38,154 nt of DNA, from positions 1 to 38,154 of the forward strand of contig NZ_AMXD01000022.1 of the NCBI RefSeq assembly GCF_000310185.1, given 5' to 3'. The stretch's first letter is position 1; the number at the start of each line of letters is the position of its first letter. The DNA is from Thauera aminoaromatica S2. Its GTDB lineage: Bacteria > Pseudomonadota > Gammaproteobacteria > Burkholderiales > Rhodocyclaceae. The position numbers and the translations under genes are program-made. Shown here piece by piece: positions 2,578-29,395 of the stretch. The notes under the pieces are model-generated. The model was given only the letters and a program-made list of their open reading frames with translations. It was not told the DNA's origin and searched no databases.

Positions 2578-2653
2578 GGGCCTTTAGCTCAACGGTTAGA
2601 GCAGAGGACTCATAATCCTTTGGTTGCGGGTTCGAATCCCGCAGGGCCCACCA
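2578..2653 (+). tRNA. ileX: tRNA with CAU anticodon, most likely tRNA-Ile2 (lysidine-modified)
   Basis: A complete 76-nt cloverleaf: acceptor GGGCCTT paired with AGGGCCC, D-loop AGCTCAACGGTTAGAGC, anticodon loop CTCATAA on stem GAGGA/TCCTT, T-arm GCGGGTTCGAATCCCGC, and an encoded CCA. CAU anticodons belong to initiator Met, elongator Met or Ile2. The first base pair G1-C72 argues against the initiator. The consecutive C4-G69 and C5-G68 pairs are the acceptor-stem determinants known for TilS, which converts C34 to lysidine. That favours Ile2, which reads AUA, though elongator Met is not fully excluded. It lies 42 bases after rpoD. Confidence 0.88.
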
Positions 2654-2662
2654 ACGTTTTCA

Positions 2663-2704
2663 AGCACAACGCCAGTCCTCCCCGGGGCTGGCGTTGTGCT
2701 TTTC
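2663..2704 (+). terminator. Rho-independent terminator after the tRNA
   Basis: A perfect 13-bp inverted repeat, AGCACAACGCCAG (2663-2675) and CTGGCGTTGTGCT (2688-2700), with a 12-base loop, is followed directly by a short T tract. It would end the rpoD-tRNA transcript. Confidence 0.85.
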
Positions 2705-2761
2705 GGGTCTCCCACATTCCGTCCAAGGCAGCGTCGTACTGGAAGGGGCACTGGCGCGTGC

Positions 2762-2790
2762 CGCCGATCGAGTCGTTGTCGGCGTTTTTT
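2762..2790 (+). terminator. possible second, tandem terminator
   Basis: CGCCGA (2762-2767) and TCGGCG (2779-2784) form a 6-bp stem followed by TTTTTT (2785-2790). The stem is short and the loop is 11 bases, so it is weaker than the hairpin about 60 bases upstream. No gene is seen between 2705 and the PEP-CTERM promoter. Confidence 0.45.
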
Positions 2791-2880
2791 ACAGTTCCGC
2801 CCGGATCACGCCAGCCAATCACCTTGCCCGCAAGAATTTACTATTTTCCATTCAACAACTTGCCGATTTTCACCCGAGGC

Positions 2881-2896
2881 AGGCATGCCCCTTGCT
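2881..2896 (+). promoter_or_regulatory. candidate sigma-54 (-24/-12) promoter for the PEP-CTERM gene
   Basis: AGGCATGCCCCTTGCT carries GG at 2882-2883 and GC at 2894-2895 with exactly ten bases between them, the invariant spacing of RpoN promoters (consensus TGGCAC-N5-TTGCA). The predicted start is near 2906, about 50 bases before the coding start. In betaproteobacteria, PEP-CTERM genes are often linked to the PrsK/PrsR two-component system, whose regulator is of the sigma-54-activating type, so this fits. A CCCGGA-GT-TCCGGG palindrome at 2912-2925 lies in the predicted leader. Confidence 0.6.
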
Positions 2897-2958
2897 TTAC
2901 ACCCTTCGAGACCCGGAGTTCCGGGAGTGTCACACGGGACCCGAAAGGAGTGATGATC

Positions 2959-3774
2959 ATGCAAGTCAAACCTCTCTGCGCAGCGCTGACGCTGGCAGTG
3001 CTCGCCTCCACGGCATCGGCCGCCACGACGACGCTGTCCGGCACCATCCGCGATTTCTGCGCGCCATCGATCACGGGCACCACGGGCGCTACGACATGCA
3101 CCCAGCTCGCCGATTTCGAAGGCGCCATCCCCGGGGTGGTGCCGAACATGACCGGAACGACCCTGAGCGGCGGGCTCCCCGTCGCCGGCGCGAACATCGT
3201 TGCCGGAGCTTCGACGGCGGCCAACTTCGCGAAATGGTACGTGGACAGCCCGGGCTACAACCTGAGCCAGGCCTTCTCGCTGACGCTCGGCGAAACCACG
3301 CCCGGAAGCGGCGTCTATTCGTACGCCTCGTCGAGCTTCTTCCCGATCGACGGCCAACTCTTCGGCAACCAGGGGCGCGGCCACAACTACCACTTCACGC
3401 TGCACCTCGAGGGCCAGCTCTCCTTTGCCGACCCCACCGCCGCTGCAGACAATTCATTCAGCTTCACCGGCGACGACGACCTGTGGGTGTTCGTGAATGG
3501 CATCCGGTTCATCGACCTCGGTGGCGTGCATGGCGCCGCAAGCGCCTCCTTCACCGAGGAGACGCTGAAGACCGCCGGACTGGCACCGGGAACGGCCTAC
3601 GACCTGGATATCTTCTTCGCCGAGCGCCACACCAGCGAGTCGAATTTCAACATCACCACGAGCTTCGCGATCACGCCTCCTTCGAACAACGTGCCCGAGC
3701 CGGGAGGGCTCGCGCTGCTCGCCCTCGGACTCGCCGGCCTTGGGGCCATTCGGCGCCGGTCTCGGGTGGGATGA
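2959..3774 (+). CDS. PEP-CTERM sorted, fibro-slime-domain secreted protein
   Basis: A 271-residue exported protein. The N-terminus (MQVKPLCAALTLAVLASTASA) is a signal peptide cleaved after an AxA. The C-terminus is a PEP-CTERM sorting signal: VPEPGG, a hydrophobic Leu/Ala/Gly helix (LALLALGLAGLGAI) and a basic RRRSR tail, the signal processed by exosortase. The middle carries the fibro-slime signature: FTGDDDLWVFVNGIRFIDLG, then GGVHG, then a late DIFFAERH and SNFNITTSF. That domain is a carbohydrate- or surface-associated beta fold first noted in slime moulds and Fibrobacter. ATG 2959 is preferred over ATG 2953 because the AAAGGAG at 2944-2950 is then 8 bases away. The gene stands alone between terminators; no exosortase or EPS genes are in the window. 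Its role in matrix or cell surface is inferred from the sorting signal. Confidence 0.85.
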   Translation: MQVKPLCAALTLAVLASTASAATTTLSGTIRDFCAPSITGTTGATTCTQLADFEGAIPGVVPNMTGTTLSGGLPVAGANIVAGASTAANFAKWYVDSPGYNLSQAFSLTLGETTPGSGVYSYASSSFFPIDGQLFGNQGRGHNYHFTLHLEGQLSFADPTAAADNSFSFTGDDDLWVFVNGIRFIDLGGVHGAASASFTEETLKTAGLAPGTAYDLDIFFAERHTSESNFNITTSFAITPPSNNVPEPGGLALLALGLAGLGAIRRRSRVG

Positions 3775-5549: not shown

Positions 5550-5784
5550 CGGAACTCTCCCGGCAGACTACCCGTTTCGAGCCTAGACCCGGGTTGCGGA
5601 GAGATCACGATCGTCGATCAGGACTATTGACGAAGGTCAACGCGTGTGCCGAATCGTGGTGTGGCCGACCCGGCACGCAGCCTGCCGGGCGGAGCGCGCG
5701 ACGGAGCGTAGACGTGACGATGGGGACCGAAGTCCCCACCGGCTTTTCTTTGGTAACAAGGCTCAAGCAGCCTCGGCATAGGCC

Positions 5785-5817
5785 TTAAGCGGCCAGTGCG
5801 AAACGCTCATCGTTGGC
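5785..5817 (-). other. tmRNA proteolysis-tag reading frame (ANDERFALAA-stop)
   Basis: Read on the minus strand from 5817: GCC AAC GAT GAG CGT TTC GCA CTG GCC GCT TAA, encoding ANDERFALAA. With the alanine carried by tmRNA this gives AANDERFALAA, ending in the LAA degron recognised by ClpXP/ClpAP. It fits the betaproteobacterial tag pattern. Confidence 0.93.
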
Positions 5818-5895
5818 GTTTATGGATTTGCGCGGATTACGTCCGTCGCCTCTCGGGTTGCCTGCTCACCTTTGCCCGCCCTGTCGAAACCGGTA

Positions 5896-5939
5896 CACCC
5901 CCACCCAAGCACACTCCCGAATGCACTTGGGTGGAGGTG
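5896..5939 (-). other. tmRNA intervening loop and processing stem
   Basis: The acceptor half ends CACCTCC-ACCCAAG (5939-5926) and the coding half is preceded by CTTGGGT-GGGGGTG (5909-5896). Together they form one continuous 14-bp stem (one G-U), capped by a 16-base loop. Seven pairs are the mature acceptor stem. The outer part and loop must be removed to make the two pieces. The acceptor is followed by ACCC, not ACCA, so the CCA end is not fully encoded. Confidence 0.8.
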
Positions 5940-6000
5940 AGGGGAATCGAACCCCTGTCCAGAACGCCTCCAGATTGCCGGGATTACAACCATGTCCGCG

Positions 6001-6029
6001 ATCTTACGCAGGTCGGCGGCTGCATTCAA
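6001..6029 (-). promoter_or_regulatory. sigma-70 promoter of ssrA
   Basis: On the minus strand TTGAAT (6029-6024) and TAAGAT (6006-6001) are separated by exactly 17 bases. Transcription would begin near 5994, just ahead of the tmRNA acceptor half. Confidence 0.75.
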
Positions 6030-6136
6030 TGCCTGTGCGAGGACAAGGCCCGGTCCGTTTGTAAGCAATTGCACCGCGCCGGACGAACTCCCTATCCGAC
6101 GCGGCTCCAGCCCGCACGCACCTCGCACCTCGCACC

Positions 6137-6715
6137 TCACGCCTTCGGCACCCTCCCCATCAGGTAGAAGGGCTCGTTGGGCGGCGTACCGGTCAGATGC
6201 ACCAGCCGGTTGCTCATGCTGAAGAAGGCGGTGATCGCGCCGATGTCCCAGATCGCCTCGTCGTCGAAGCCATGCGCGCGCAGGACCGCGAGGTCGGCCT
6301 CGTCGACCTCGGCGCCACGCGTGCTGAGCTTGATGGCGAAGTCGAGCATCGCGCGCTGGCGCGGGCTGATCTCGGCCTTGCGGTGATTGGTGGCGAGCTG
6401 GTCGGCGAGGCGCGGGTTCTTCGCGCGGATGCGCAGGATGGCGCCATGGGCGATCACGCAGTACAGGCACTGGCCGGCAGCCGAGGTGGCGACGACGATC
6501 ATCTCGCGCTCGGCCTTGCTGAGGCCGACGTCCTTCTCCATCAGGGCGTCGTGGTAGTCGAAGAAGGCGCGGAATTCGGCCGGGCGGTGGGCGAGCATCA
6601 GGAACACGTTGGGCACGAAGCCCGCCTTCTCCTGCACGGCGAGGATGCGCTCGCGCACGTCCTCGGCAAGGTCGGCGAGTTCGGGCACCTTGAAGCGGCT
6701 GATGGTTTCGGTCAT
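6137..6715 (-). CDS. AhpD-like / carboxymuconolactone decarboxylase family peroxidase-related protein
   Basis: A 192-residue protein of the AhpD-like fold (uncharacterised peroxidase-related subfamily). The diagnostic CxxCxxxH is present as CLYCVIAH, with Cys83, Cys86 and His90. In AhpD such cysteines form the redox-active disulfide that handles hydroperoxides and is re-reduced by a thiol partner. The sequence is all-helical and soluble, with no signal peptide. ATG 6715 follows a strong GGAGG. It lies 36 bases downstream of acuI on the same strand, so the two are probably co-transcribed. The physiological substrate is unknown; members of this family are often found near oxidoreductases. Confidence 0.85.
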   Translation of the reverse strand: MTETISRFKVPELADLAEDVRERILAVQEKAGFVPNVFLMLAHRPAEFRAFFDYHDALMEKDVGLSKAEREMIVVATSAAGQCLYCVIAHGAILRIRAKNPRLADQLATNHRKAEISPRQRAMLDFAIKLSTRGAEVDEADLAVLRAHGFDDEAIWDIGAITAFFSMSNRLVHLTGTPPNEPFYLMGRVPKA

Positions 6716-10735: not shown

Positions 10736-11503
10736 TCAATCTTCGCGGGTGAAGGCGCCGCGGTCGGCGGCGGCGGTCGCGATCACCGGCAGCGTCGCCG
10801 CCGCGCTGCGCAGCGCGGCGCGCGCGGCACGCCAGTCCGGGTACAGACGCTCGACGACCGCCCAGAAGCGCGGCGAGTGATTCATCTCGGCCAGGTGCGC
10901 GACCTCGTGGGCGACCACGTAGTCGATCAGCGCCGGCTCGAGATGGATCAGCCGCCAGTGCAGCCGGATCCCCGAGCGGGTGCTGCAGCTACCCCAGCGC
11001 GTGGCCGCGCTCGACAAGCTCACCGGCGGAACCGCAACGCCGAGACGGTGGCAGTACTCCTCCGCCCGCCCGCGGTACCAGGCCAGTGCGCGCGCGCGCA
11101 GCGCGCGCACCAGCGCCCGCTGCGGATCGACGCCCGCGGGCAGCAGGAGTTCCTCCCGTCCATCCGCCAGGCCCCGCCAGCGCGCCGCGCGCGCCGACAC
11201 CCGGCGCAGCACCAGGACACGCCCGAAGAGCGGCAGGCATACGCCCTCCGCCACCTCCAGCGGCAGCGCCTGCGGCGCCTGCGCCCGCGCCCGCAGACGG
11301 TCGAGCAGCCAGGCACCGTGGCTATGCACGAAACGCTCGACCTCGCCGAGCGGGGTGCGCAGTGGCACCGACACGCGCGCGCCGCGGTGGTCCACCTGGA
11401 GCGCGAACGAGCGCCGCGCCGAGCGCCGCAGCACCAGATCGACACGGGTGCCCTCGACGAGCACGCTGTGCGGCTCTTCCGAGGCCGCCGCCCGAGCGCT
11501 CAA
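10736..11503 (-). CDS. M48/DUF45 (YgjP-like) zinc metallopeptidase
   Basis: About 255 residues. The C-terminal half carries the HExxH zinc site in VVAHEVAHLAEMNHSPRFW, where the downstream His of NHSP is the usual third ligand, plus the family's RWGSC before it. These are hallmarks of the SprT-like/YgjP (DUF45) family, predicted soluble metallopeptidases often found near restriction or housekeeping genes. Their substrates are unknown. The start is not certain. TTG 11503 overlaps the stop of the upstream gene as TTGA and has GGAAG 7 bases before it, which fits translational coupling. GTG 11464 is the alternative and would give 242 residues. The open frame further upstream lies wholly over the CinA-like gene. 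Confidence 0.82.
   Translation of the reverse strand: MSARAAASEEPHSVLVEGTRVDLVLRRSARRSFALQVDHRGARVSVPLRTPLGEVERFVHSHGAWLLDRLRARAQAPQALPLEVAEGVCLPLFGRVLVLRRVSARAARWRGLADGREELLLPAGVDPQRALVRALRARALAWYRGRAEEYCHRLGVAVPPVSLSSAATRWGSCSTRSGIRLHWRLIHLEPALIDYVVAHEVAHLAEMNHSPRFWAVVERLYPDWRAARAALRSAAATLPVIATAAADRGAFTRED

Positions 11504-29292: not shown

Positions 29293-29395
<103 letters not shown>

Follow-up and report, generated by a model that had tools for sequence, protein, structure and literature searches.

A circularly permuted two-piece tmRNA gene of Thauera aminoaromatica S2 and the patchy alternation of permuted and standard ssrA among Rhodocyclaceae

Introduction

A minus-strand locus in a 38,154-nucleotide stretch of Thauera aminoaromatica S2 (NZ_AMXD01000022.1, positions 1 to 38,154; the whole stretch is called the window) raises two questions: whether it encodes the tmRNA of this cell as two pieces in permuted order, and why close relatives carry ssrA in one form or the other. 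A preliminary description, made from the letters alone, had read the locus as a two-piece tmRNA gene with a 14-bp processing stem and a promoter of its own, the latter two offered as possibly new. Sharkady and Williams reportedly defined a third lineage of two-piece tmRNA, the beta type, in 2004. Permuted two-piece tmRNA in Betaproteobacteria, the Rfam models that describe it and phage-borne two-piece tmRNA are already in print; 50 of 53 phage-borne cases come from marine or aquatic samples (PMC9004378), and the permuted form is explained by tandem duplication with loss of the outer segments (PMC3978253).

Results

Identity and anatomy of the window gene

The window gene is the tmRNA gene of the cell, circularly permuted and of the betaproteobacterial two-piece type. 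ARAGORN reports a permuted tmRNA at 5694-6021 (-) with the tag ANDERFALAA, and Rfam RF01850 (beta_tmRNA) matches at 5715-6042 (-) with 327.5 bits over model positions 1-331 of 331, above the gathering score of 84 bits. The second permuted model, RF04321 (tmRNA_permuted), scores 172.3 bits over 1-213 of 213. The tag frame contains the resume codon and an ALAA-like end followed by a stop. The acceptor half precedes the tag half, both on the minus strand, with CACCUCC at 5939-5933 ahead of GGGGGUG at 5902-5896; this order, the tag and the two-piece betaproteobacterial class all agree with the preliminary description.

The S2 assembly searched is 99.9% complete (4.28 Mb, 317 contigs). It holds one RF01850 match over the cut-off, the window locus itself, and no RF00023 match (standard ssrA) over the cut-off, all eleven matches, the window locus among them, falling below it. 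A standard ssrA elsewhere in the genome is therefore rejected, as is a pseudogene or remnant, the window gene being intact and the sole ssrA over the cut-off. Because no standard gene scores elsewhere and both ARAGORN and RF01850 match here, the identification withstands the computational check, and the identity and anatomy of the gene are established by computation. The partner protein SmpB is encoded in the same genome (PF01668, 203.3 bits). The parts of the gene, all on the minus strand, are as follows.

6024..6029, minus strand: -35-like hexamer TTGAAT (sequence; TTG start in 72 of 74 permuted genes)
6001..6006, minus strand: -10-like hexamer TAAGAT after a 17-nt spacer (spacer of 17 in 68 of 74; the stretch lies within the RF01850 consensus)
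5933..5995, minus strand: acceptor piece, the 3' part of a normal tmRNA, with H2 strand GGUUGU, T-arm and CACCUCC (RF01850 and RF04321 alignments, ARAGORN); its 5' end, 5995, is a probable position placed from that of the promoter
5939-5933, minus strand: acceptor 3' strand CACCUCC (ARAGORN, Rfam, sequence)
5903..5932, minus strand: transcribed linker (ITS), a 13-bp extension of the acceptor stem closed by a CGGG tetraloop (fold, covariation over 79 distinct relatives)
5715..5902, minus strand: coding piece, the 5' part of a normal tmRNA, from GGGGGUG through the 3' hairpin (RF01850 alignment)
5902-5896, minus strand: acceptor 5' strand GGGGGUG (ARAGORN, Rfam, sequence)
5785..5817, minus strand: tag reading frame ANDERFALAA and stop (ARAGORN)
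5741..5772, minus strand: conserved helix region 3' of the tag (RF01850 alignment)
5715..5740, minus strand: GC-rich 3'-terminal hairpin with a UUCG loop, then ...UCA, with no U-run (RF01850 alignment)

A predicted linker helix extends the acceptor stem

Directly beyond the seven acceptor pairs, the 30-nt linker (5932-5903) folds back on itself, adding 13 pairs and generating an uninterrupted 20-bp helix; three of the outermost six linker pairs are G-U. The preliminary description was thus right that the acceptor pairs run on unbroken, but the stem has 20 pairs (7 + 13) rather than 14. The 71-nt stretch containing the helix has a folding energy of -41.3 kcal/mol, whereas its shuffled versions average -25.6 (z = -4.56), and none of 200 shuffles is as stable. 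When the letters of the linker are shuffled, 12 of 12 outer pairs, G-U allowed, form in 15 of 200,000 trials and seven of seven in 657 of 200,000.

The helix covaries among relatives, as judged from an alignment of 79 distinct acceptor-plus-linker sequences, 48 of them the distinct sequences of 61 long-linker genes and the rest drawn from 57 of 58 named-organism loci, the divergent Herbaspirillum locus described below being left out. Across the 12 linker pairs scored, 89.5% of cells are paired, and two-sided changes occur in nine of the 12. By comparison, slid registers pair 23-51% of the cells, shuffled letters a mean of 42% (maximum 47%), and arms dealt among the sequences a mean of 78% (maximum 82%); this last control has a mean two-sided-change count of 5.4 and a maximum of 9, so that some arm shuffles also attain the observed count.

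The helix is kept with some latitude. The second linker pair forms in only 50 of the 79 sequences, five of the 79 linkers form no more than 5-6 of the 12 pairs, and an uninterrupted run of at least seven pairs beyond the acceptor stem is found in only 43 of the 61 long-linker genes; an unbroken helix is therefore not needed everywhere. Minimum-energy folds nevertheless close end to end in 60 of the 61, and 57 of the 61 have 18-23 in-register pairs, acceptor included, despite linker lengths of 28-46 nt. The CCA end is not encoded in the window gene, which reads ACCC, nor in 55 of the 61 long-linker genes; the other six encode it.

A second linker design accounts for the remaining 13 of the 74 permuted genes compared. 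In these, only 4 nt separate an encoded CCA from the first G, and all 13 read ACCA; with so short a linker they have no long stem. They belong to G104, G156, G191, G198, G220, G281, G270, G164, G070, G207, G084, G064 and G175. Eight of them adjoin ubiG in the ancestral direction (see below), for which reason the 4-nt linker might be the older design.

That the stem might be new, as first suggested, holds in part: the extension is absent from the RF01850 structure, but it is common to most relatives examined. No description of the linker helix was found in the open-licence literature searched, and one may be present in the 2004 paper that defined the lineage.

Promoter and 3' end

The putative promoter of the window gene, TTGAAT-N17-TAAGAT, is weak by consensus; its support is conservation in relatives. 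Only 8 of its 12 hexamer positions agree with the sigma-70 consensus, and a scan of 5640-6180 for hexamers 16-18 nt apart found no site at a threshold of nine of 12. Among the best sites of the 74 permuted genes, chosen with no scoring bonus, 72 start with TTG and 68 have a spacer of 17 nt, compared with means of 9 and 15 of 74 in shuffled upstream stretches. The mean best-site score is 9.0 of 12, against 6.7 in shuffles, and the score is 9 or 10 in 50 of the 74. The element named in the preliminary description is therefore present as a conserved site, but it is not new, because the stretch already lies inside the RF01850 consensus.

At the opposite end, the model terminates in TCA in 67 of the 74 genes, and TTTT follows the hairpin closely in only two. 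No intrinsic terminator, meaning a hairpin with a U-run, was found at the 3' end of the window gene; lacking the U-run, its hairpin is not a standard intrinsic terminator.

Proposed maturation and function

Membership in the family makes function as a two-piece tmRNA almost certain, and one precursor, two mature RNAs, alanylation and trans-translation are what the family would predict. RNA polymerase would begin transcription about 7 nt downstream of the -10 box, yielding a single precursor comprising the acceptor half, the 30-nt linker, the coding half and the terminal hairpin. The acceptor strands and the linker would fold into one 20-bp hairpin, and a cut within this extended stem would release two RNAs of about 60 and 190 nt, still held together by base pairing in the acceptor stem and H2. 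Trimming would shorten the 3' side and, since CCA is not encoded, CCA would then be added, while RNase P would finish the 5' side at the first G of GGGGGUG. The two-piece tmRNA would be charged with alanine and, with SmpB, perform trans-translation, adding the tag ANDERFALAA. As a whole, a permuted gene giving one precursor, a cut stem and a two-piece product acting with SmpB is very probably the best explanation of the locus.

For the first cut, RNase III acting in the extended stem has, in our judgement, an even chance. The preferred order would begin with an RNase III cut in the two-turn helix, followed by trimming, CCA addition and RNase P. RNase P normally reads the RCC(A) of a precursor; RNase III is favoured because the extended stem would bury these residues, the discriminator and the following CC being paired with the leader, and because stem length is kept (mostly 18-21 bp, about two helical turns) while linker length varies. 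A conserved double helix of about two turns, as an RNase III stem calls for, is found here (20 pairs) and in most long-linker relatives.

It is also a serious possibility, somewhat short of an even chance, that ordinary tRNA enzymes do the work alone, RNase P making the 5' end of the coding piece and tRNase Z or exonucleases the 3' end of the acceptor piece, with the extended stem serving only as an aid to folding or stability. The RCC residues of the window precursor, predicted to pair with the leader, would make an unusual RNase P substrate, and the missing CCA of the 55 long-linker genes likewise argues against this route. On its side, the family includes the 13 genes with encoded CCA and a 4-nt linker, to which a long stem is not available, and one review calls RNase P and tRNase Z probable for two-piece tmRNA (PMC3985003).

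Patchy distribution of permuted and standard ssrA

In Thauera, 27 of 29 genomes have RF01850 over the cut-off, the match in G026 being partial and at the end of a contig. Of the other two, G017 carries a standard ssrA (198.7 bits), and G027, which is 81% complete, has neither form over the cut-off. Among 24 order-mates outside the family, the standard gene is over the cut-off in 22 and the permuted gene in none. A strict scan of named-organism sequences yields 58 stretches with the permuted gene, mostly from Thauera, Azonexus, Dechloromonas, Propionivibrio, Accumulibacter, other Rhodocyclaceae or (beta)proteobacterial MAGs.

Of 249 family genomes sampled evenly and surveyed at E <= 1e-20, 92 have RF01850, 137 have RF00023, two have both and 22 have neither. 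The two genomes with both forms are G064 and G175, one of them doubtful. The standard tmRNA of G175 (L281, 2779-3140) lies on a 3.5-kb contig and encodes the odd tag DNEYNYEY; it is perhaps contamination or a phage gene. Besides Thauera, 11 genera hold both kinds (g7, g42, g45, g52, g54, g56, g69, g76, g83, g86 and g91), the permuted case in g7 consisting of two partial matches. For example, within one genus the single-contig genome G187 is permuted and the single-contig genome G096 is standard.

Herbaspirillum sp. CF444 carries a divergent permuted tmRNA (L116 3305-3653, from NZ_AKJW01000033.1; tag ANQPQYIAYGT; RF04321, 114.8 bits) whose linker has no long stem, together with a standard ssrA of 218.4 bits.

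A tree of three linked neighbour genes (mtaD-like, ompA-like and ubiG proteins; 673 columns, six rows with under half of them) was built from 73 genomes picked to cover mixed genera, so its rates of change are not representative. Over its 70 labelled rows the form changes 18 times; the starred branches by themselves require 17 changes when the permuted label is followed and 15 when the standard label is. A tree constrained to unite the permuted rows is rejected (AU p 6.5e-56). Grouping the permuted genes of Thauera as one clade is also rejected (26 rows against 48, AU p 0.00036), on an alignment of only 251 columns.

Genomic loci

The ancestral place of ssrA is beside ubiG. Five of the six standard genomes of other family genera that were laid out (G029, G030, G033, G034 and G035) share the order gyrA, mtaD-like, ompA-like, ubiG, gph-like, ssrA; around the standard ssrA of the sixth, G031, this cluster was not seen. 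The names come from NCBIfam, with scores over the cut-off for GyrA, TRZ/ATZ hydrolase and UbiG and under it for OmpA and phosphoglycolate phosphatase. Judged by coordinates, no more than 2 kb separates the permuted gene from ubiG in at least 22 of the 92 genomes with the permuted form; its direction is ancestral in 13 of these and reversed in nine. A Rhodocyclaceae MAG (L102) has mtaD, ompA, ubiG, gph and the permuted ssrA in order.

In Thauera the permuted gene has moved: it adjoins rpoD in several genomes and lies elsewhere in G001, G003 and G014. The standard ssrA of G017, which nests with these three at 100/99 on the neighbour-gene tree, sits between ubiG and the gene that comes after ubiG in them. 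Close to the gene its flanks match those of the three at 83-87%, and further downstream at 78-82%; G001, G003 and G014 have only 34-251 bp between the aligned flanks, that is, an empty site.

In the window, a tRNA-Met (2578-2653, plus strand) lies directly downstream of rpoD, and a PA14-domain protein with a PEP-CTERM end is encoded at 2620-3774 (+); the length of DNA between rpoD and the tmRNA gene differs among relatives. A prophage-borne copy in the window was considered and rejected, since among the six ORFs between the tRNA-Met and the tmRNA gene Pfam recognises only the PA14/PEP-CTERM protein. The window also encodes a bacterial small SRP RNA at 29295-29393 (-), with 81 bits.

Phage and plasmid carriers

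Two scans of a metagenomic viral collection yielded seven distinct permuted-tmRNA stretches, two of which hold close relatives of the window gene. L310 (298.2 bits) is 95% identical over 297 nt to an Accumulibacter gene and 92% over 288 nt to the window gene, and L311 (269.2 bits) is 97% identical over 330 nt to a Propionivibrio gene. Ten proteins were tested in each record. In the 43-kb record behind L311, a helicase, a primase and two ParB-methyltransferases precede the tmRNA, terminase, portal, head protease, tape measure and tail assembly proteins lie beyond it, and one of the ten has no match. In the 18.5-kb record behind L310, the same ParB-methyltransferase pair adjoins the tmRNA, accompanied by a primase, an annealing protein, an antirepressor, a regulator and an integrase; no structural protein was found among the ten. 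The integrase frame also matches a DNA-invertase family. A frame of the 43-kb record is 66% identical to this integrase. A Pfam PF00589 integrase search of five of the viral records found none. Judged by gene content, both carriers look like temperate tailed phages, the 18.5-kb record being a fragment of one. The beta-type permuted tmRNA genes of the two phage records (L317, 17908-18247; L316, 198-523) both adjoin a ParB-methyltransferase gene pair.

The other five viral stretches are more distant permuted tmRNAs. On viral contig L312, ARAGORN places a tRNA with anticodon CTA (amber) at 11222-11297, about 1.1 kb from a divergent permuted tmRNA. Among the loci compared, most of them with only 1.5-5 kb of flank, matches to the phage ParB-methyltransferase, terminase and integrase at E <= 1e-20 were found only in phage records.

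Of 50,697 named phage records, 14 match the window gene and none over 80% of it. The best is Stenotrophomonas phage vB_SmaS-DLP_6 (70% over 48%), and the other 13 are cyanophages matching over 10-12%. With none covering 80%, and with both carriers coming from the metagenomic viral collection, no named phage holds a close copy. Five plasmid records match as well; the three examined, Cupriavidus KK10 p1 (a 1.67-Mb replicon), Cupriavidus USMAHM13 and the conjugative Pandoraea pPO70-1, carry permuted genes of 284.1, 231.7 and 131.6 bits, respectively. The plasmid loci are L313, L314 and L315, and L314 encodes the unusual tag GKNDAFYYEAA.

Discussion

The window gene shares with the RF01850 model the order of its parts, the promoter region and the 3' hairpin; the model leaves the linker unpaired, whereas in the window gene it forms 13 pairs stacked on the acceptor stem. 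The one-piece ssrA of other Rhodocyclaceae (RF00023) has the same kind of tag, T-arm and acceptor logic but differs in its normal order, longer middle part and encoded CCA. In working principle only, the helix resembles rRNA processing stalks, long helices that form between the sequences on either side of a structured RNA and are cut by RNase III. The alpha-type two-piece tmRNA of Caulobacter and Orientia likewise has permuted order and a cut precursor but is a separate lineage with its own model, RF01849. In the alphaproteobacterium Orientia, Northern blots show a 372-nt permuted precursor and pieces of about 80 and 240 nt (PMC7335160). RF04321 is matched in full length by the window gene but has base pairs only in its tRNA-like domain (PMC11915505).

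Repeated horizontal replacement of standard by permuted ssrA is the likeliest cause of the alternation between the two forms; most simply, the permuted gene would spread and take the place of the native one. On balance we lean towards a single origin of the Rhodocyclaceae permuted ssrA, which would behave as a compact, mobile unit that brings its own promoter, is borne by temperate tailed phages and by plasmids, and has repeatedly replaced the one-piece ssrA, either at the native locus or elsewhere with clean loss of the native gene. It would exist in two coexisting linker designs, one with a 20-bp stem and mostly without CCA, the other with 4 nt and CCA.

Vertical inheritance is an unlikely alternative account, under which both forms were present in an ancestor and each lineage lost one of them, with no transfer. 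In its favour, G064 has both: its standard ssrA shares a contig with ubiG, and its permuted ssrA lies on a different contig. Against it stand the 18 form changes, with 17 forced for the permuted and 15 for the standard label by the starred branches alone, the presence of both forms in only two of 249 genomes, one doubtful, the rejection of a single clade for the Thauera permuted genes, and the existence of phage and plasmid carriers. It is very improbable that the patchiness is mostly an artefact of misbinned metagenome contigs: many survey genomes are fragmented, the standard gene of G175 sits on its short contig with an odd tag and G231 has only two partial matches, but form changes persist when the tree is limited by assembly (seven among 28 genomes of at most 20 contigs, five among 25 of at most 10, four among 15 of a single contig), the single-contig genomes G187 and G096 differ within one genus, and both flanks of the G017 standard ssrA match those of its Thauera sisters.

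No report of within-genus alternation, or of beta-type tmRNA in such phages, was found in the open-licence literature searched. The window gene itself adds one further sequence to a catalogued family, and the added value of the analysis is comparative. Close relatives that differ in form, together with phage and plasmid carriers, would permit a direct comparison of why cells swap a one-piece for a two-piece rescue RNA, and the conserved stem offers a testable route by which the precursor may be cut.
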